Position numbers and translations under genes: made by a program. From the NCBI RefSeq assembly GCF_003096415.1, contig NZ_QEKH01000002.1, positions 186,001-250,000 of the forward strand: a DNA stretch of 64,000 nt, read 5' to 3'. Under the pieces are notes generated by a model. The model was not told where the DNA came from, did not search any database, and saw only the letters and a program-made list of their open reading frames with translations. Below, piece after piece: positions 37,032-57,871 of this stretch; the first letter of the stretch is position 1; every line of letters begins with the position of its first letter. This stretch comes from Victivallis vadensis. GTDB lineage: Bacteria; Verrucomicrobiota; Lentisphaeria; Victivallales; Victivallaceae.

Positions 37032-38081
37032 CGCGAAGCGTCTTTGAAGTGCGTCGCGGGGGGGCTTGTTCCTTCGACGCGAAGCGTCTTTGGAGTGCGG
37101 AGATTCATCTCCGCTTTCAAATCGCACGTGAGTTTTATGGTTGGCTTGTCATTGCATTAAGAACAGGCAAGGTGCCCTGAGGGTAACAACTTTTGAGCAC
37201 AGTAACAGGCGGGGTGCCCGGAGGGTAGTGAGCGCCGCGCCTTCGGCCTGCGGATGGCTCCGGGGGACGTCGCGCACGTCCCCCGGACCCCCTCGCCGGT
37301 GGCGGAGGCCGGTCCGGTTGCAAGGCACTTCCGCTCGCGGGCGCGGCTTTGCCGCTTACTTGTCCGCCTACGGCGGCCAACCCTTCATCGTTCGCTTCGC
37401 TCACTACGCCAGGGGGGCTTCGCTCACTACGTTCGGCTTCGTCACTACCGTTCCTCGTTACTTGCCGGAGGCAAGTAATTCCCTCACATTCGTTCGCGGC
37501 GCTGACCGCGCTTGTTGTGCGCCGCGTAAGTGGTTATACTGCCTTATTTGTGCGCCGCTTAAGTGGTCATGCAGACCGACCGATGCCTTGCCTGTACTGG
37601 TTGTCCGCACGCCCCCCGGAGGGGCATTGGCGGGCGCACCCGGCAGCGGCACCTTGCCGCCCGCGCAAATGGTGATGCAGACCGACCGATGCCTTGCCTG
37701 TACTGGCTGCCCGCACGCCCCCCGGAGGGGCATTGGCGGGCGCACTCGGCAGCGGCACCTTGCCGCCCGCGCTTGTGTGCGCCGCGTAAGTGGTGATGCA
37801 GCCTTATTTATGTACCGTGTAAGTGGTTATGTAGACCGCCCGATGCCTTGCCTGTACTGGCTGCCCGCACGCCCCCCGGAGGGGCATTGGCGTGCGCACT
37901 CGGCAGCGGCACCTTGCCGCCCGCGCAAATGGTGATGCAGACCGACCGATGCCTTGCCTGTTCTGGCTGCCCGCACGCTCTCCGGAGGGGCATTGGCGTG
38001 CGCACCCGGCAGCGGCACCTTGCCGCCCGCGCTTGTTGTGCGCCGCGTAGAGGGTGAGTTGGCTTATTCAGGGATCAGCTC
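37032..38081. repeat. Kilobase hairpin-rich repeat field with tandem 106 bp units
   Basis: A gene-free kilobase between the Mrp gene (plus) and the phosphoesterase gene (minus), both ending into it. It opens with GACGCGAAGCGTC repeated at 37032 and 37076 and a GCGGAGAT/ATCTCCGC hairpin. Further in are several other palindromes, for instance GGGGGACGTCGCGCACGTCCCCC and ACTTGCCGGAGGCAAGT. From about 37575 there are four near-identical units starting at 37575, 37681, 37835 and 37941 (106 bp within each pair) and a pair-joining linker (tgtgcgccgcgtaagtgg motif) near 37516 and 37777. Each unit has a GCCCCCCGGAGGGGC palindrome and the CGGCACCTTGCCG core found in the elements at 50500 and 53824. Reading frames across it are low-complexity and not gene-like. 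Confidence 0.85.
37575..38030. repeat. Tandem pair repeats (two pairs of 106 bp units)
   Basis: Units begin ACCGACCGATGCCTTGCC at 37575, 37681 and 37941, and ACCGCCCGATGCCTTGCC at 37835. Pair members are 106 bp apart; the second pair begins 260 bp after the first, because a 48 bp linker intervenes. Single-base differences between copies (for example TTGTCCGC or CTGCCCGC) show slow divergence. Homologous recombination or slippage could change copy number. Confidence 0.9.
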
Positions 38082-48433: not shown

Positions 48434-50467
48434 TCAGACGGTTTTCCCGGAGCGTATTCCGGCCTGGTCAATTGTTTCGGCGGGGTCGGGGAAGAACTCC
48501 CGGCGCAGCGCGGAATCCGGTTTCAGATGGAAATCGCGCTTTTCCGGCGACACGAAGCCGGGATCGAGAAATTTCGAGTGGCGGTCGAAGCCTCTGGCGC
48601 GCCATTCGGAGCAGGTGAGAAAGGCCTCCCCCACTTGGGCGAACTTCCGGCGGCTGCCGCCGTGGAAAAAGTTGCAGTCGGAGGAGAACTGCTCCGGATC
48701 GACCGCGAGCGGAGCCGCCGCCCGGAAAAACGGATGCCCCGGTGCCTGCAGAAACACATTGCCGAGCAGGTTCAGGTTGTTCTGGTAGTTCGTTCCCGGC
48801 AGTTCATAGAGTTCGCGGCGGTCGTTCCCTGAAGTGATTGCGAGGGCGGAGTTCGCGTTGAATGCGAAGATGTTGTAACGCACGATATTCTCGCGCCCGT
48901 AGTGCTGGTGGTAGCCGTCGCGGGTGCAGTTGAAGCAGACATTGCGCTCCAGCACCATGTGCGCCGAGCCTTCGTCGGTGTAGAGCGCCCAACCGCCGTA
49001 AAAGCGGCAGCTTACGTCGTGGATCAGGTTGTTGTAAACCCGGGTGCCGGGCTGGATGCCGAGCAGATAGACGCCGCCCATGTCGCAGAGCAGCTGTTGG
49101 CCGAGGTCGTGGATGTGGTTGAAGCCGATCCGGTTTTCGCGGGCGGCCTGCTCGGCGTAGCCCCAGCTCCAGCCGCAGGAGATCCCGGTGTAGTAGAGGT
49201 CGTGGATGTGGTTGTGTTCGATCAGGTTGCCGAAGGCGTGCCCGATCAGGATTCCGGCGGCGCTGTGCTGAAGGCGGCCCGCATGGGCGATTTCGCAGTC
49301 GGCGACCGTGACGCGCCCGGTGCGCCGCCGGACGGTGTCGGCGGAGGGCGCGCCGGAGATCACGATTCCGCCGCCGCCGAGGTCGGAAAAGCGGCAGCGC
49401 CGGACGGCGATGTCCGAGGAACCCGGACCGATGTTGAGCCCGTACCAGCCGCAGTGTTCGATCACGCAACCGGAAAGCTCCGCATTGCGCACTCCGCGCG
49501 CCATCAGCACCGCCGGGAACTGCACCGCCGCCTGTCCCGCGTTGGCGGCGTCGAGGCCGTCGAACGGGGACTGGTCGGCACGGTGGAAGGTGTTGCTCCA
49601 ATCCGCGAGCCGCCCGTCGCCGAGGTCGTAGCAGGAGCCGCTGCGGGAGAAACCGGCGCCGCCGTAGCGGAACGTCAGGTTTTCCAGCCGGACGCCGGAG
49701 AGCAGGCCCGGTTCGCACGCTTCGCCGCCGCCGTCCAGCGCCAGCAGCGCGCCGACCGCCGGGACGACCGTATCGGCGCTGTCCGGCTCCACGCCCTCCG
49801 GCGGAATCCACCAGAGCTGCCGGGCGGTGCGGTCGAACCAGTATTCGCCCGGCCTGCGGAGCGCCTCCTTCACGTTTTCAAAGTGGAACCGGGCGTATTC
49901 CGGATCGGCCGGAAAGCGGGAGTAACGGCGGAAGGCGAGAACGTTTTCCCGCGCGTCGAAGCTCTCCACCGGCAGCCGCGATTCCACCCATTTGGTGAAC
50001 AGCACCGTTTCGATTCCGGCTGGTTCGCTCCACGCCGGATCGAAATCACCGGCTTTCACCCGGAAGCTGCGGGTCGGCACGAAAAGCCGCCCCTCCGAAG
50101 CCGGAAAGGTTTCAGCCGGCGTCAGGTCGCCGTTTTCCGGCCACCGGCTCCGTTTCTGGCGGATTCCATCCGCGAAAAACTGGTTGACCGTGCCGTCGGA
50201 AACCGCCTGTTCCGGCACGGCGGCGCGCCAGGCGGCACGTCCGTTGATCCTGTCCCTGACCCAGCCGGTGAGGCGGCAGCCGCCATCCAGCACCGTGCTG
50301 CCGTCCGCCGCGCCGCGCACCGTCAGGCCGCGGCGGGAAGCGGGAATCACCAGAGGGCGGTCGAGGCGGTAAACTCCGGAAGCAAGTTCCAGTTCCAGCG
50401 GTTCGTCGATCAGGGCGGAATCGATGGCGGCGGCGATGTCGTCGGATGCGGTCAGTCGGATCAGCAT
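48434..50467 (-). CDS. Right-handed parallel beta-helix protein (no signal peptide)
   Basis: 677 residues. MLIRLTASDDIAAAIDSA ... LELELASGVYRLDRPLVIPASRRGLTVRGA.DGSTVLDGG is the start of a pectate-lyase/parallel beta-helix family, with long stretches of ISGCVIEHCGWYGLNIGPGSSDIAVRRCRFSDLGGGGI-type coils. Histidine-rich coils (EHNHIHDLYYTGISCGW, NHIHDLGQQ, NLIHDVSCR) are like the DUF1565/right-handed helix group. Glycan or peptide targets cannot be read. SD GGGAGGAAATTTC. The absence of a signal peptide is unusual for a fold that is mostly exported. A 443 bp structured spacer lies upstream. Confidence 0.84.
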   Translation of the reverse strand: MLIRLTASDDIAAAIDSALIDEPLELELASGVYRLDRPLVIPASRRGLTVRGAADGSTVLDGGCRLTGWVRDRINGRAAWRAAVPEQAVSDGTVNQFFADGIRQKRSRWPENGDLTPAETFPASEGRLFVPTRSFRVKAGDFDPAWSEPAGIETVLFTKWVESRLPVESFDARENVLAFRRYSRFPADPEYARFHFENVKEALRRPGEYWFDRTARQLWWIPPEGVEPDSADTVVPAVGALLALDGGGEACEPGLLSGVRLENLTFRYGGAGFSRSGSCYDLGDGRLADWSNTFHRADQSPFDGLDAANAGQAAVQFPAVLMARGVRNAELSGCVIEHCGWYGLNIGPGSSDIAVRRCRFSDLGGGGIVISGAPSADTVRRRTGRVTVADCEIAHAGRLQHSAAGILIGHAFGNLIEHNHIHDLYYTGISCGWSWGYAEQAARENRIGFNHIHDLGQQLLCDMGGVYLLGIQPGTRVYNNLIHDVSCRFYGGWALYTDEGSAHMVLERNVCFNCTRDGYHQHYGRENIVRYNIFAFNANSALAITSGNDRRELYELPGTNYQNNLNLLGNVFLQAPGHPFFRAAAPLAVDPEQFSSDCNFFHGGSRRKFAQVGEAFLTCSEWRARGFDRHSKFLDPGFVSPEKRDFHLKPDSALRREFFPDPAETIDQAGIRSGKTV

Positions 50468-50490
50468 GAAATTTCCTCCCGGCTAAGAGT

Positions 50491-50511
50491 TTATTCAGGG
50501 ATAAGCTCTAA
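50491..50511 (-). repeat. Copy 2 of the 20 bp edge motif
   Basis: TTATTCAGGGATAAGCTCTAA, matching the copy at 38064-38084 in all but a few places. Here it lies 24 bp before the minus-strand start codon at 50467, at the boundary of the structured field. Confidence 0.6.
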
Positions 50512-50910
50512 GTTGCACTTTCTTTCAACATATCGGAAGATTTCGGAATTGCAAGCTGCATTTCCGCATTTTCGGGGAATGCCCCGGAAAGCCATGCCGC
50601 TTTCGCGGCAGGCGGGTCTGCAACCCTGCGGTTTGCAGACCTTGTGCGCTACGCGGCCTGATTTGCAATCAGGCACCGGTAGCTGGGCGCTGTAGCGCAC
50701 AAATTACCTCCGGTGGCAAGTGCGCTTCGCCCCTTGACCCCGACCGGGTAGCACCCGGTGGCGTATACCGCTGATAGACCTCTCGCTACCCATTATTAAT
50801 CCTCCGGTTTTGAGATTTTTGCGCAGCAAAAAACTCGAAACCGTACTCGGCGCCGGCACCTTGCCGGTCGGGGGGACCGGGGGGCGAAGCGCCCCCGGCC
50901 GCCGGAGGCA
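50500..50910 (-). repeat. Structured intergenic element, copy M
   Basis: The spacer follows the stop codon of the YejM-like gene directly (in transcript sense 50910 to 50500). The first part has GGGGGC-GCTTC-GCCCCC (about 50880-50896), the conserved CCGACCGGCAAGGTGCCGG core (50855 region), GCGCC and a hairpin of about 11 pairs with a three-base loop at 50836-50812. Further on are CCGGGT-AGC-ACCCGG (50743-50757), a 10 bp outer stem TGTGCGCTAC/GTAGCGCACA enclosing CCTGATT-TGC-AATCAGG, and GTCTGCAA/TTGCAGAC. Its first 120 bases match the arms at 53824 and 54242. No gene is seen in this stretch. Confidence 0.75.
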
Positions 50911-52812
50911 TCACTTGACGAAGCGGGTGAGATCGCGCTGAATCTGGAAGAGTTCGGCTTTGTTTTCGTTGTAGAAGGGGTCGAGCGAGGGCAGGGGATT
51001 GTCGTTGCCGTCGGTCAGCTTCTGGGTCGCGAAAGCGATGGAGTTGCTGGGGAGCAGGGTCTTGTATTTGGGACTGGCGTAGAAGACCTGCGACCAGTTC
51101 GCGATGATGGTGTAGGTGCGCTTCTGGGCGGGATCGAGCAGGTTGTAGCCGAGGGAATAGTCCGCGATCGGATTGGTGACGCCGAAGTAGGGGGCGAGGA
51201 TCGGGACCACGTCGAGATGGCTGCTCATGCCGGTGTAGACCTGAGGCTTCATGCCGGGGATGTGGATGACCAGCGGGGTGCGGACCTGTTCCTGGACGAA
51301 AGTGGAGTTGTGGCCGAGGCGGCCTTTTTCGTAAAATTCCTCGCCGTGGTCGCCGACGAGCACGACGATGGTGTTTTCCCAGAGGTTGCCGTCGTCGAGT
51401 GCCTTGAAAACTTCGGCGAGGCGCATGTCGAGGTGGTGATTGGAGTTGATGTAGCGGTTTTTGATCATGGTGCCGTCGCCGCTGGAAACCTTGGCGTAGT
51501 TCAGCTCCTGGGCGTACTCCTTGCGGATGACCGCTTCCTCGGGGAATTCATACGGGGCGTGGGGGGATTCAAAGAACATGAAGGCCATGAAAGGGCGGCT
51601 GCGGTCGGCGTTGCGGATGAATTCGGTCAGCAGCTTCACGTTGCGCTGGTCGCGGGTGTAGGTCGGGCCGTGGTCGTCGCTGTGGAGCGCTTCGGAGGGG
51701 ACGCGGCAGAAAACGGTCTGGTCGAATTCGGGATAGCTGAATTTGGCCGAGGTGATGCACTTGAAGTTGTAGTTGTCTTCGATCAGCCAGTCGATGAAGA
51801 CGGGGCCGCGGCGGCTCTTGAGGAAGCTGTCCCAATAGTTGCCGTAGATGCTGTAGAACATCGTGAAGATGCCCTGCCGGGTGCCGTTGCCGCCGGAGTA
51901 GTTGTTCTTGAAATTCACAGATTTTTCGGCGAATTTGCTGGCGTTGGGCATGATTTCCGGGGTGAGCATGTCGGCGCGCCAGGATTCGCAGGCGAGCCAG
52001 ACCACGTTGTATTTCGGCCGGTCGGCGCTGCGCTCGATCGGATGGGCGGGATAATTCAGGTTCTTGTATTTTCCGGCGTTGGCCTTGACCTGCATCACCT
52101 CGCGGTTCGGCGGGCGCACGCCGAGGCCGGAAAGGAACCGGGACATCGTCGCTCCCTGAAACAGCGGGATCGTGGCGGTCGCGACCAGCGGAGTCGAACG
52201 CAGCATGTAATGCTCGTATCCGTAGGCGAACATCGAAAAGAGCAGACAGACAAGGCACAGCCCCCCCAGCGCGTACTTGCGCCACGACTTCAGCACGGCG
52301 GCGATCACGCGCAGCTTCGGCAGCCAGACGAAGGCGGCCATGATTCCGGCATGGACCAGAAGCAGCAGCACGATGCCGCCGACCAGCGTCAGGATCGTCC
52401 CGGCGCGCAATCCCATCGAAGCGAAACCGCCGGGAGTGGTCAGCAGATTCCAGACCAGGAAGTTGAAGTGAAAACCGAAACCGTGGTACAAACCCGCATC
52501 CATCAACAGCAGCAGGTGCGACAGGAACATGGTGCCGACCGCGCATCCGGTCACCAGCCGCCGTCGCCACGCGGCTTCGCCCGCTTTCACGGTCGCGACG
52601 GAGACAAGCGCGGTCAGGAGCAGGCCGGGAACCATATACAAAAAGGAGTAGGAGAGGGCCGCGGCAGCCATGATGGCCACCGTGATGCCGTTCCACTCAG
52701 TCACGCGCGAAACGAAGAAACCGACGACGGCGAGCATCAGTACATAAACGACCATCAGGTACGGGGCGATCGCGTCCCAGCCGGGAAACCACAACTTTTT
52801 TTGCTTATCCAT
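50911..52812 (-). CDS. YejM/LtaS-like inner-membrane sulfatase-fold protein
   Basis: 633 residues. An N-terminal membrane part (about 1-200, five helices with MDAGLYHGFGFHFNFLVWNLL) resembles the DUF3413 domain of YejM/PbgA. The periplasmic part is a sulfatase fold: ACESWRAD (Glu276), NNYSGGNGTRQGIF (Thr311), GDHGEEF (Asp488, His489), TPLVIHIPG. These fit the metal and nucleophile positions of LtaS-type enzymes; E. coli YejM lacks the DH pair. So it may be an active phosphotransferase/hydrolase rather than a sensor. In E. coli YejM regulates LPS level. A gene-free structured spacer follows its stop. Confidence 0.85.
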   Translation of the reverse strand: MDKQKKLWFPGWDAIAPYLMVVYVLMLAVVGFFVSRVTEWNGITVAIMAAAALSYSFLYMVPGLLLTALVSVATVKAGEAAWRRRLVTGCAVGTMFLSHLLLLMDAGLYHGFGFHFNFLVWNLLTTPGGFASMGLRAGTILTLVGGIVLLLLVHAGIMAAFVWLPKLRVIAAVLKSWRKYALGGLCLVCLLFSMFAYGYEHYMLRSTPLVATATIPLFQGATMSRFLSGLGVRPPNREVMQVKANAGKYKNLNYPAHPIERSADRPKYNVVWLACESWRADMLTPEIMPNASKFAEKSVNFKNNYSGGNGTRQGIFTMFYSIYGNYWDSFLKSRRGPVFIDWLIEDNYNFKCITSAKFSYPEFDQTVFCRVPSEALHSDDHGPTYTRDQRNVKLLTEFIRNADRSRPFMAFMFFESPHAPYEFPEEAVIRKEYAQELNYAKVSSGDGTMIKNRYINSNHHLDMRLAEVFKALDDGNLWENTIVVLVGDHGEEFYEKGRLGHNSTFVQEQVRTPLVIHIPGMKPQVYTGMSSHLDVVPILAPYFGVTNPIADYSLGYNLLDPAQKRTYTIIANWSQVFYASPKYKTLLPSNSIAFATQKLTDGNDNPLPSLDPFYNENKAELFQIQRDLTRFVK

Positions 52813-53026
52813 TCAATATGCTCCGGAAAATAAATGTGTATGCGAAACAAAACCCTAATATATCAGTGATTCGGAGATATTCCAGAGAAAATGACAAAAA
52901 GGTAATCACATCATCATTTCGCAACGGAAGGAGGCAATTTGAATAAAACTGAGAATCCGCGGTTGGCGCGCTTGCATTTCTCCGGTTTCCGGTTTAATTT
53001 GTGCAGGGGGGAAGAGTGGAGGAAGT

Positions 53027-53797
53027 ATGAAACGAATTTGGTGTGGTATCGGCGGAGCAGTGCTGTTGAGTGTTTTGGCAGGGTGTCACTGGGGAGAAAA
53101 ACAGGATACCGGGCGGCCGGAGGGATTTTTACCTCCCGAAGTGGTCACGAAGGACTGGTCCGCTTATAAAAAACGAACCGAAAAACTGGTCGTTGAAAAA
53201 CGTTACGCCGAGGCGTTGGAGCATTATCAGTGGTTCATCGATCATATCCCCGGAGATATGGACATGGCCGGGGAGCGCCGGATCTGGGGACTGGGCGGCT
53301 GGGCCCGGCTCGGCAAGCTCTATCCGCCGGCCCGGACGGCTCTCGCGGAATTGCGCGACCGCAAGGAAGCAGGTCTGCGTTCACAGAAACCTGTGTCATC
53401 GGCTGAAACTGTAACTGTCCTCCCCGACCTGCAGGACATCGGTTCCATTAACCGCTATCTCGGCGAAGAGGAGCGTACTCTTGCCTTGTTCCGCCGGCTG
53501 GACGCTGAACAACCGGTATTGGCTCAACTCTACTGGCCCCACGTCGAAGGCTGGATGATCGATCACGATCAGATGGAGTTGGCAGAAAAGTACATTCCCG
53601 ATATCAACGAACGCTGGGAAGCCCTGAAAGGGCATATCGGAAAAAATCCGGGATATCACGCCCGGATGATCGAAGAGGACGCCGTCCGGCTGGCCAAAGT
53701 CGCCCGTTCCGCCGGTCAAAAGGGGTTGGCCGACCGGATCAGGCGTGAGTTGAAAGAACAGCTTCAGAATACGGTTCCAACCGTTCCGAGTGAATAA
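53027..53797 (+). CDS. Lipoprotein, TPR-like
   Basis: 256 residues. MKRIWCGIGGAVLLSVLAGC is a lipoprotein signal with LAGC lipobox (Cys20). The mature protein is helical with TPR-like pairs (YAEALEHYQWFIDHIPGDMDMAGERRIWGLGGWARLGKLYPPA; YLGEEERTLALFRRLDAEQP). It is probably anchored at the outer or inner membrane; I know no family. SD GGAGGAAGT. The 709 bp palindrome begins 27 bp after its stop. Confidence 0.75.
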   Translation: MKRIWCGIGGAVLLSVLAGCHWGEKQDTGRPEGFLPPEVVTKDWSAYKKRTEKLVVEKRYAEALEHYQWFIDHIPGDMDMAGERRIWGLGGWARLGKLYPPARTALAELRDRKEAGLRSQKPVSSAETVTVLPDLQDIGSINRYLGEEERTLALFRRLDAEQPVLAQLYWPHVEGWMIDHDQMELAEKYIPDINERWEALKGHIGKNPGYHARMIEEDAVRLAKVARSAGQKGLADRIRRELKEQLQNTVPTVPSE

Positions 53798-53823
53798 TTC
53801 TCCTCGCGCCTGTTCGCATCGGT

Positions 53824-54114
53824 GATTTCGCTCCTTTCGGAGCGACCAAGGCGCTTCGCCCTTGGAACCCGACCGGCAAGGTGCCGGCGCCGGGTACGAG
53901 AGCCGGGAAAGGCGGCACGCCTTTCCCTCCGGGAGGGGGAGGCTCCGGTAGAGACAGGCAAGGTTGTACAGGAGCGGCACACCGCTCCGGTCGGCGACCG
54001 CGTCGGCTTTTTTGCCGACGCCGGGCACTCCCTGCGGTGAGCTGCCGCCGGAGGTCACGCGCGGAACAGCCAGATGCTGACCATCTGATGTGAAGTTACC
54101 CTTATGGAGGCTGA
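53824..54114 (+). repeat. Structured element arm L (left arm of a 709 bp palindrome)
   Basis: This 291 bp arm begins GATTTCGCTCC and is inverted relative to 54242-54532. In transcript sense it has GCGCTTCGCC-type hairpins, the core CCGACCGGCAAGGTGCCGG, a 10 bp stem with three-base loop (53905-53927), GGAGCGG-CACA-CCGCTCC, and GCGTCGGC-T6-GCCGACGC (54000-54021), ending in CAGATGCTGACC and GGAGGCTGA. No gene lies in it. It follows the lipoprotein gene directly. Confidence 0.9.
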
Positions 54115-54134
54115 ACTCTGCCTATCCTCATAAT

Positions 54135-54181
54135 ACAGGCAAGGTTCAGTAAGGCTCGTACTCAAAGATATGCTTGCCTGT
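54135..54181. repeat. Central inverted repeat of the palindrome
   Basis: ACAGGCAAG (54135-54143) and CTTGCCTGT (54173-54181) invert around the middle of the 53824-54532 palindrome. The middle 127 bp (54115-54241) otherwise differ between the two sides. No gene is visible. Confidence 0.7.
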
Positions 54182-54241
54182 GATATGGCAATTGTATTGT
54201 TGCCTGACCGCGCTTTGCGTATACCGGCAGATAAATTCTTA

Positions 54242-54532
54242 TCAGCCTCCATCAGGGTATCTTTCTATTACCCGGTCAGCATCTGGTTGTTCCGCGCGTG
54301 ACCTCCGGCGGCAGCAGGCGCAGGGAGTGCCTAAAGCCCGCAAAAAAGCGGGCTTTGCGCCGACCGGAGCGGTGTGCCGCTCCTGTACAACCATGCCTGT
54401 CGCCATCAGGGCTCCCCCCACCCGGAGGGAAAACCGGAACGGTTTTCCCGGATCTCAAGTATTCGGCACCGGCACCTTGCCGGTCGGGTTCCAAGGGCGA
54501 AGCGCCTTGGTCGCTCCGAAAGGAGCGAAATC
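54242..54532 (-). repeat. Structured element arm R (right arm of the palindrome)
   Basis: The inverted partner of 53824-54114, also 291 bp. In transcript sense (minus) it begins 8 bp after the hisF stop. It has the same core (54464-54490 region), but different stems: GGGAAAACCG/CGGTTTTCCC (54427-54449) and AAAGCCCGC-T6-GCGGGCTTT (54333-54356). Stem changes are compensatory against arm L. Confidence 0.9.
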
Positions 54533-54539
54533 CCTGCTG

Positions 54540-55307
54540 CTACTGTTTGACGTTGACGCCGTTGGCGCGCAGATAGCTTTTGAGTTCGGGGATGTCGATC
54601 AGGTGGAAATGGAAGACGGAGGCGGCCAGCAGGACGCCCGCCCCGGCCTGGGCGGCTTCGAGAAAGTGTTCCATCTTGCCCGCGCCGCCGGAGGCGACCA
54701 CGGCGGCATCCGGGCAGGCTTCGTGAATGGCGCGGATCACAGGCAGGTCGTAGCCGGTGCGGGCGCCGTCTCCCGCTTTGCTGGTCGGCAGAATGGTTTC
54801 CACGCCGAAGCCGCGCACTTTTTTCGCCCATTCGACCGCGTCGGCTCCGGTGGCGGTGCGGCCGCCGTCGATGTAGACCTCATAGCCGGAGGGCAGGGCG
54901 GGATTCACGTCGACGTCGATTGCGACGGTGACCCGGCCGGGGCCGAATTCACGGATCATTTCGGCGATCACTTCCGGGCGGCGGAAGGCGGCGGAGCTGG
55001 TGGAAACCTTGTCGGCTCCGGCTTCGAGCACGGCCGCCGCCGAGGCGACGTCGCGGATGCCTCCGCCGACGGTGAAAGGCACGGTGCAGGCCGCGGCGAC
55101 CCGGCGGACCACATCGTGCAGCGTCGCGCGGTTTTCTACGGTCGCGGTGATGTCGAGCAGCGCGAGTTCATCGGCGCCGGCGGCGCAGTAGGCGCGGGCG
55201 CACTCCACCGGATCCCCGGCGTCGGCGATATCGACGAAGTGAACACCTTTGACGACCCGTCCATCCCGCATATCCAGACACGGCATGATCGAAACAATCT
55301 GATCCAT
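54540..55307 (-). CDS. hisF: Imidazole glycerol phosphate synthase subunit HisF
   Basis: 255 residues, a (beta/alpha)8 barrel. [29 protein letters not shown] (Asp near 12), VTVAIDVDV (the second catalytic Asp), [33 protein letters not shown] and [13 protein letters not shown] ... LAASVFHF identify HisF rather than HisA. It makes imidazole glycerol phosphate and AICAR with HisH. hisI lies 52 kb away and hisH is not in the window. Promoter at 55348-55376. The stop is 8 bp from arm R. Confidence 0.94.
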
Positions 55308-55513: not shown

Positions 55514-56218
55514 TCAAAATTCGCGAATCGCCAGATTGGAGTCCCGCCACTGCTTGACGCAGGGATTGCAGTATTTGGCGCGTTCTTCGGTCAGCTGCTG
55601 ATAGCTGAGCGGCTCGGCATGGCCGTCGAACATCACCACGTTGGCGCGATCCGCATGACGGACATAGGCCGGATAGTAGGCTTTCGCCGAATCCTTCGGG
55701 GCGACCGGCGAAGTCGATTCGTAGTAGGCGGCCTGTCCGGCCCGGTTGCGGATCTTGCCGTTGTAGGCGTCGCAGACCGGCGGGGTGTCGATGAACATGA
55801 TCAGCTGCGCGTCGCGCCCGAACTTGCTGATCTCATCGACCCGGTGCGGCACTTTCTTCTGGCCGTTGCCGAACGTTTCGCCGAAGGTCAGCACGTTCAG
55901 TCCGTAATTGAGTTGTTTGGAGTTGAACGCATAGTTCGTTTCGGCCGGACACTGGAACGCCTTTTTGTCCACCTGATAGTTCTTTTCAAATACCGCGAAC
56001 CAGTTGCCGATGCCGCGGCCGAGGTAGCCGGTGACCGCCCAGCCGTCGGAATCTGTCGCATACTGTGCGGCTGCTTTGCCCATGCGGGAGAGATTGTCCC
56101 GGCAGCCGACCTCTTCCGCCGCCTCGCGGGCGGCAGCCAGCATCGGGTGAATCATTGCCGCCAGCAGCGCCACCACTGCAACGATAATCACCAACTCAAC
56201 AAGCGTAAATTTCTTCAT
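55514..56218 (-). CDS. Pseudopilin-like H-X9-DG protein
   Basis: 234 residues. MKKFTLVELVIIVAVVALLAAM: short leader, prepilin peptidase site before F, Glu5 and hydrophobic helix. The C-terminal signature is H-ADRANVVMF-DGH. The body includes CPAE, typical of the family. The leader is only three residues, much shorter than in the 44075 protein. It follows the next gene upstream by 27 bp; a terminator lies downstream. Confidence 0.88.
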   Translation of the reverse strand: MKKFTLVELVIIVAVVALLAAMIHPMLAAAREAAEEVGCRDNLSRMGKAAAQYATDSDGWAVTGYLGRGIGNWFAVFEKNYQVDKKAFQCPAETNYAFNSKQLNYGLNVLTFGETFGNGQKKVPHRVDEISKFGRDAQLIMFIDTPPVCDAYNGKIRNRAGQAAYYESTSPVAPKDSAKAYYPAYVRHADRANVVMFDGHAEPLSYQQLTEERAKYCNPCVKQWRDSNLAIREF

Positions 56219-56245
56219 AAGTCCTTGCCTTCAATCCAAATACTT

Positions 56246-57019
56246 TTACTTTTTCCACTGGGCCCAGAAATAATTGGGATCCTTTTTCTGTTCACCGATT
56301 CCGGTTTGGGTGTCGCCGGGAATATCGTGATATCCCATCATTTTGGTATGACCGTCGACAAAAACGACATTCATACCTTTATTTTCCATATGCCGCCAGA
56401 GATCCAGCGGGGCAATGGAACTGCGTTGACCGACTTCCGGGCTGTCAGCATCTGCTCCGGCGGCTTTGCCCGTGTCCATGACGATCATACGGGAGGACGG
56501 AGTCTTTACCCGTGCAATCAGAAAACCATTGGGTTCATTTTGGCTCCAGCCATTTTTTCCGGCAGCATAATCGGAATTGCCATGGTGGGAATTCATGCTG
56601 TAATGCTGGGCAATTCCCTTATTGTAAGGAGCGACCAGCGGTTGGGAAGGGCAGGCAAAAAACGCTTTGGGGCGGTTGTTTCCCTTGATTTTATCCCGAG
56701 TTTCCTCCGGCCGGTCGTAGTGCATCAGGTCGAATGGAGTGAGATTGGGTTTGGAAAGGGCGTAAAGCATGTCCTGCCACTTTCCCTGGCCGTGCCATTC
56801 ATAACTGGAGAGGTTGCCGTTGTATTTCGGGAACCTGCCGTTATTGTTGTCGGTGTAGATCACCATGTAATTGCCGATCTGCTTGAGATTGTTGGTGCAG
56901 GAGATGTCTTTCGCCCGGTTGCGGGCCTTGTTCAGGGCCGGCAGCAGCATGGCGGCGAGGATCGCGATGATCGCTATCACGACCAACAGCTCAATTAGGG
57001 TGAAGTTCTTAGTTTTCAT
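56246..57019 (-). CDS. Pseudopilin-like H-X9-DG protein
   Basis: 257 residues. [33 protein letters not shown], then [31 protein letters not shown], a conserved region of this family. The terminal signature is FVDGH with the His eleven residues before DG. ATG at 57019 with SD AGGAGAGAG; an upstream extension (MRFTTGERI) is out of SD range. 27 bp before the next gene; middle of a three-gene run. Confidence 0.9.
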
Positions 57020-57078
57020 AATTCTCTCTCCTGTTGTAAAACGCATTTGGGGTATCCATAATATAAGGGGTAAATTGT

Positions 57079-57813
57079 CTATTGGGCGACGGTTCCGGTA
57101 GCTCCCTGCTGATAGGGCTCATGGGCGTTGAAAGCGGTATTGTTGATACCGGAATTTCCGCTGTTCATCCAATGGCTCTGGCTGATTCCGCCCGCGTGTC
57201 CATCTACGAACAGCGTGCCGTTGGAAGTGCCGTGCGCGCCTTTCCGGTCCGCTTTGAAACTGGAACTGGTACTGGCGTTCTGCGGACGGAAGTACAGCTT
57301 ATCGTTGATATTGCCTTTTACGGTATCCAGCGAATCGAACATCAGGATTTTGCTAGACGGATCTTTGGTTTGGGAAAGCATCCGGCTGCTTTTGGCATCC
57401 TTGGTGTAGAAAAGGTATCCGTTCAGCCATCTGCCGCAATAGAATTTGGTGCCCCATGTGGCGGTATAAGGAAGCCGCGGACATTCCCAGAGTTTGTCCA
57501 CTTCCTCATTGCCGGAAATCATGAATTTTTTGGCTACGTAAGGAGCGACGGATTTGGGAATGGAGCCTTTGCTGTTGGCAAACAGCTGTTCCGAACCGCT
57601 GCCGTTTCCGGCAATATAGGGAAGCAGGCCCCGGTAGTCATCGGTATACATCTGGATGCCGGTTCCCAACTGCTTGTAACGACTGATGCAGTCGATGTCC
57701 TTGGCGCGGTCGCGGGCCTTGTTCAGGGCCGGCAGCAACATTCCCGCAAGGATCGCGATGATCGCTATCACGACCAACAGCTCAATGAGGGTAAAATGCC
57801 TGTTCGTTTTCAT
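57079..57813 (-). CDS. Pseudopilin-like H-X9-DG protein
   Basis: 244 residues. [34 protein letters not shown], then [28 protein letters not shown], close to the previous protein (duplicate in origin), and [13 protein letters not shown] near the end. ATG at 57813 has SD AAAGGAG. First pseudopilin after the LacI gene, 58 bp downstream of its stop. Confidence 0.9.
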
Positions 57814-57871
57814 TTTTCGACTCCTTTTCTGCTTTGAATGGAAACTTTCGATCATTCTGCCAAAGGACCTT

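Follow-up and report, generated by a model that had tools for sequence, protein, structure and literature searches.

Within the window, the 64,000-nucleotide stretch of Victivallis vadensis DNA analysed here, two genes, a 256-aa open reading frame on the plus strand and hisF on the minus strand, converge on a 709-bp palindrome composed of two inverted arms and an asymmetric centre. As named in the original prediction, the minus-strand gene is hisF (PF00977, E=2e-66), while the label 'lipoprotein' given there to the 256-aa product has a signal-like N-terminus as its sole basis, because the product has no Pfam match. The features of the locus are the following:

50585–50912, no strand: element M, of a second family, a multi-hairpin repeat of ~325 bp that has H2+H3
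53027–53797, plus: 256-aa open reading frame, whose stop precedes the left arm by 26 bp
53824–54114, plus: left arm, 291 bp, inverted copy of 54242–54532, in sense after the 256-aa open reading frame, with 70 homologous arms in the genome
53828–53845, plus: hairpin H1, GCTCC/GGAGC type, mirrored at 54511–54528
53846–53865, plus: hairpin H2, CCAAGGCGCTTCGCCCTTGG, 20 of 60 arms having GCAGGG..CCCTGC instead
53873–53887, plus: hairpin H3, CCGGCAAGGTGCCGG, invariant; the H2+H3 module is common to element M and repeats of related genomes
53905–53927, plus: hairpin H4 (stem 1) of the left arm, with two stem types and inverted loops
53974–53985, plus: hairpin H5, GCGGCACACCGC, from the 60-arm stem analysis
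53986–54052, plus: three-way junction, TCCGGTCGGCG ... TGCCGCCGGA, around H6 and H7, from the 60-arm stem analysis
54000–54021, plus: hairpin H6 (stem 2) of the left arm, GCGTCGGC-T6-GCCGACGC, with a conserved T6 loop
54115–54241, minus: asymmetric centre, ~127 bp, conserved in every copy, with a tandem duplication in some; its canonical orientation is here minus
54242–54532, minus: right arm, 291 bp, in sense after hisF
54333–54356, minus: hairpin H6 (stem 2) of the right arm, T6 when read on the minus strand
54427–54449, minus: hairpin H4 (stem 1) of the right arm, counterpart of the left-arm H4
54540–55307, minus: hisF, whose stop lies 7 bp away from the right arm

The predicted coordinates and equal lengths of the inverted arms were reproduced. 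The arms are 83.6% identical over the whole 291 bp (blastn E ~1e-84), so that their match is not due to chance, and their complementarity falls into blocks of 99, 87, 74 and 31 nt at 81–91%. Stem 1 reads GGGAAAGGCG-GCA-CGCCTTTCCC in the left arm and, on the plus strand, GGGAAAACCG-GAA-CGGTTTTCCC in the right, which gives the described ten pairs around a loop of 3 nt, exactly two of the pairs being compensated, and stem 2 likewise keeps its T6 loop while most of its pairs are replaced. Both arms fold more stably than shuffled sequence (z -4.1 and -3.6), and the linkers between the hairpins are strongly conserved as well. H1 is of the GCC/GGC or GCTGC/GCAGC type in other copies. Elsewhere in the window, two tandem direct copies of 260 bp, 92% identical and with GGCACCTTGCCG motifs, lie at 37516–38035, and three adjoining prepilin-like open reading frames with N-terminal FTL(I/V)EL motifs occupy 55514–57855 on the minus strand.

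Further copies with covarying stems, which the original prediction named as support, are abundant in the source genome, a 5.2 Mb draft in 87 contigs. An arm query matched at least 40 full-length arms, a centre query reached further ones, and at least 35 complete elements with about 70 arms were extracted, in addition to copies cut by contig ends. All 35 complete elements are two-armed palindromes with a common asymmetric centre (~290 + ~127 + ~290 bp), and their core measures 651–957 bp between the GATTTC ends. The centre is without any gene across the at least 35 dispersed copies, and the element is thus non-coding. An ~86-bp unit of the centre is doubled in six copies of ~800 bp (L052, L054, L081, L088, L089 and L090); these possibly represent the most recently active lineage, and five of the six have kept the outer terminal repeat described below. 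Three others (L051, L062 and L082) carry a structured insert of ~125 bp, a nested hairpin module, which sits at the T6-loop hairpin in a single arm or in both.

The whole element was found in none of the 197 other genomes of the class, the source genome standing alone among 198. Phage and plasmid records gave no match to the element, viral contigs scanned for the outer repeat and named genomes scanned with a centre pattern gave nothing, and a scan of named genomes with an H3 pattern hit, for the most part, unrelated genomes of high GC content once each, which we read as chance, and gave two matches in Lentisphaerae. No Rfam family matched positions 50400–54700 at E<=1 or the palindrome at the gathering threshold, and the literature searched describes no such repeats for Lentisphaeria. 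Only the H2+H3 module, of ~50 bp, recurs in other genomes, above all in genome G005 of the family. Element M belongs to a family scored at about 40 places or more in the source genome, several of them in tandem arrays; one such array, at G000:C32:34399-35346, has a period of ~332 bp. A few copies (L069, L115) are composites of the outer repeat and M-type sequence.

Other copies have additional terminal bases beyond the ends given for the palindrome, and their common end is at the CCGG/GATTTC junction. Outside this core, many copies carry a terminal repeat of ~27 bp, ACGCCGTGTGCAAGTTTCYTGAACCGG, which the palindrome of the window is without. The outer repeat stands at both sides of five full copies and of short derivatives, which have lost the centre of the palindrome, and at neither side of 22 copies, the window's included. 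Among nine copies readable at both outer repeats, five are flanked by an exact direct duplication of 6 bp (GAAATA in L090, CAATAC in L065, ATATTC in L067, AAAATA in L068 and GAAAAT in L114) and of no other length, with a chance probability of about 2e-14; one of the five is a full two-arm element (L090) and four are short, and matching flanks are absent in the other four of the nine. A sixth short copy, L116, has TTATTA on both sides. Where the outer repeat is missing, target duplications directly at the core ends were not above the control. A target duplication of fixed length marks insertion by a transposase of the cut-and-paste type, and the exact 6-bp duplication therefore indicates an element family that is or was mobile. 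For the 22 copies without outer repeat, the window's among them, we infer the mode of insertion from the other copies.

One short deletion derivative occupies the same site, with the same duplication ATATTC, in two species of the genus (L067 at G000:C7:25706 and L129 at G002:C72:266). In another copy, L086 (3036–3744), the 29 bp beyond each end (AAAATAAACCTATCCGCCTTCGGCATYGG) form a further inverted pair, the stop codon of the gene among them; here the palindrome seems either to have grown through the copying of a flank or to have a variant end. Judged by arm distance, copies with the outer repeat are not significantly younger (p=0.2). No empty site was found in relatives through hisF, whose neighbours differ in the other species. 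Profile searches of the source genome (PF01797, PF01609) found no transposase with matching ends, and none was seen at any of the outer-repeat matches inspected in that genome. The single DDE_Tnp_1 gene was rejected as the element's transposase, as its ends are unrelated.

When the neighbours of the elements were called with a codon model, 24 of the 35 elements proved to have convergent genes on either side, an arrangement shared by 9 of the 126 other neighbouring pairs in those stretches (Fisher 3e-13). A gene 3′ end is faced by 55 of 68 element sides, at a median distance of 19 bp, so each arm is in sense after a stop; the arrangement predicted for the window, with the left arm read past the 256-aa open reading frame and the right arm past hisF, is thereby that of most copies. 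Sides close to a stop rarely carry the outer repeat: it stands on 2 of the 37 sides less than 28 bp from a stop, compared with 15 of the remaining 31 (p=5e-5). Either the outer repeat has been lost beside genes or the copies that adjoin stops were inserted in another way.

These observations lead us to believe, with a probability of about three in four, that the palindrome belongs to a family of non-autonomous, terminal-inverted-repeat-type mobile elements that resemble large MITEs or foldback elements. A position downstream of genes or between convergent genes, and pairs of units in opposite orientation, also characterize REP/BIME-type palindromic repeats moved by a RAYT (Y1) transposase (PMC3733652), but it is very improbable that the palindrome is one of these: Y1_Tnp (PF01797) is absent from the source genome while the same search was positive in five control genomes, the duplications of 6 bp go with outer inverted repeats, and the units are multi-hairpin structures of 290 bp instead of 20–40 bp with a GTAG/CGTC tag.

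The stems of the arms remain paired to a striking degree. Over 60 arms, the 49 pairs of seven local helices are paired in 99.6% of cells, compared with 93.4% in shuffled and at most 54% in slid alignments, and the 204 cells with both sides changed give a covariation of 0.208, where shuffled alignments reach 0.098 and slid ones no more than 0.063. H6 alone has changes on both sides in six of its eight pairs and is 99.8% paired. However, pairs in which a double change occurs at all are no more numerous than in shuffles (10 against 9.1), and the double changes make up a few whole-hairpin haplotypes: two at H2 (CCAAGG/GCAGGG), two at H4 (AAGGCG/AAACCG), about four at H6 (GCGTCGGC, AAAGCCTGC, AAAGCCCGC and AGAGCCGAT) and several at H1. 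The independent events were therefore few, and the haplotypes were presumably spread through copying and recombination. Mispairs of the G.U and A.C kinds are similarly rare (10 and 6 of 2758 cells), with G-U wobble intermediates almost absent, and thus they show no clear RNA-strand signature or preference for an arm-sense RNA.

The loop of H4 occurs in four reverse-complement pairs (TTC/GAA, TTT/AAA, TAC/GTA and GCA/TGC), for which the random probability, among nine loops, is 7.5e-5. Inverted loops together with multi-base compensations have been set out by Monttinen and Loytynoja (PMC8794818) as footprints of replication template switching, and template switching, whose predicted footprint the H4 loop pairs match, would be a mutational route that keeps the stems perfect. 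That template switching in quasi-palindromes does so by itself, in the absence of any selection on structure, is a doubtful proposition, albeit one in keeping with the replacement of whole hairpins and the scarcity of wobble intermediates. It is opposed by the loops of H2, H3 and H6, which always have one orientation (no T6 or CTTCG loop is inverted in 60 arms) and so speak for a one-strand constraint, and by the conservation of the linkers between the hairpins. Because the H4 loops invert yet the T6, H2 and H3 loops do not, both template switching and selection on the folded arm probably act. The original prediction held that such covariation shows selection on structure. The compensated changes themselves are real, but, given the few haplotypes, the scarce wobble pairs and the inverted H4 loops, covariation alone is no proof of RNA selection.

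The two arms of an element are hardly more alike than unrelated arms, the distance being 0.137 to the own partner and 0.138 to unrelated arms over the full arm, and 0.116 and 0.123 without the side-specific inner end. The association of alleles with the side defined by the centre decays outward, from ~0.9 at the inner end to 0.33 at H6, and lies below 0.15 across most of the outer half, with a few columns as exceptions. Taken together, this similarity and this decay of linkage suggest that the arms recombine, exchanging sequence by recombination or conversion. In a draft of 87 contigs, a short-read assembly could have joined arms of different copies and so imitated a mosaic of arms, against which the few contig ends within the repeat speak, and the mosaic claim alone remains exposed to such an artefact. 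As an account of the palindromes in general, fold-back chimeras or arm shuffling during assembly are highly improbable, since the flanks are unique to each copy and the arms have diverged, contig ends fall within the repeat in only two or three cases, and compensated pairs lie within 25 bases.

A further alternative is that the arms are host-selected RNA, a bidirectional 3′-end module (a terminator, an mRNA end protector or a processing site) whose copies persist through this use. It would account for the sense orientation of the arms past stops in most copies, for folding, pairing and covariation beyond shuffled and slid controls, and for the one-strand constraint on the T6, H2 and H3 loops. 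We nevertheless consider it unlikely: no canonical terminator with a stem and U tract stands out at the arms, where a terminator scan gives matches by taking either the H4 stem or the T6 loop as the tail; G.U is not clearly favoured over A.C; the element occurs in one of 198 genomes of the class, as expected of a recent parasite; and the converging gene is missing on one side of several copies.

Under the preferred reading, that of a mobile element, two multi-hairpin arms of ~290 bp and a centre of ~127 bp would originally have lain within outer terminal repeats of ~27 bp, and the whole would have been moved by a transposase acting in trans. Insertion would produce the 6-bp target duplication seen at several copies. 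Insertions survive mainly between convergent genes just past their stops, as the present positions show, presumably because harm is least there, and target or host may in addition favour 3′ ends. The outer repeats may then be lost after insertion on the sides that abut genes, in line with their correlation with distance from the stop, while the arms, judging from the linkage decay, would swap sequence across sides and copies by recombination or conversion, and hairpin pairing would be maintained by replication template switching together with selection on the folded arm. A bolder synthesis, which we hold only tentatively and think improbable as a whole, would make the element a foldback-type transposon of bacteria. 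Its arms would be interchangeable cassettes, built of hairpins constrained in orientation and reassorting among copies, its spread would supply convergent genes with a double 3′ end ready for use, and template switching and one-strand selection would keep the hairpins perfect; it would be both a transposon and a dispersed RNA 3′-end module.

With this element, the Lentisphaeria gain a large palindromic mobile repeat and, beside it, a second related repeat family. The approximately 70 arms in one genome also constitute a natural collection in which selection and template switching can be weighed as sources of compensated changes, a distinction usually presupposed when RNAs are discovered from covariation.

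Among known systems, the element is MITE-like in its ends and duplication, foldback-like in its build and BIME-like in its location. Prokaryotic MITEs (QMITE1/2, Chunjie, NEMIS/Correia, Bcr1 and ERIC) are, like the element, non-coding and intergenic, with terminal inverted repeats, target duplications and stable hairpins, and they too have truncated copies that miss ends and duplications (PMC10969869). The family shares with them its terminal inverted repeats, fixed 6-bp duplication and non-coding dispersed copies, but at 651–957 bp the element is outside their usual size of 50–500 bp (PMC10969869), and nearly all of it consists of its two arms, each a series of six or seven separate hairpins. 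The foldback-like DNA transposons of eukaryotes (FB, Galileo and Tetris) likewise have long inverted arms, a short centre and exchange between copies (PMC4168063), whereas the element is bacterial, non-coding and far smaller; the likeness is one of architecture, and homology is not expected. BIMEs and REP repeats (GTAG, CGTC) also comprise inverted palindromic units downstream of open reading frames, at convergent or tandem genes (PMC3733652), but the element has no RAYT, units about ten times longer and target duplications of 6 bp. The element M family of the source genome and the multi-hairpin repeats of G005 have the H2+H3 module and the multi-hairpin design of the palindrome; the M family differs in being ~325 bp long and often tandem, with the outer terminal repeat confined to a few composites.
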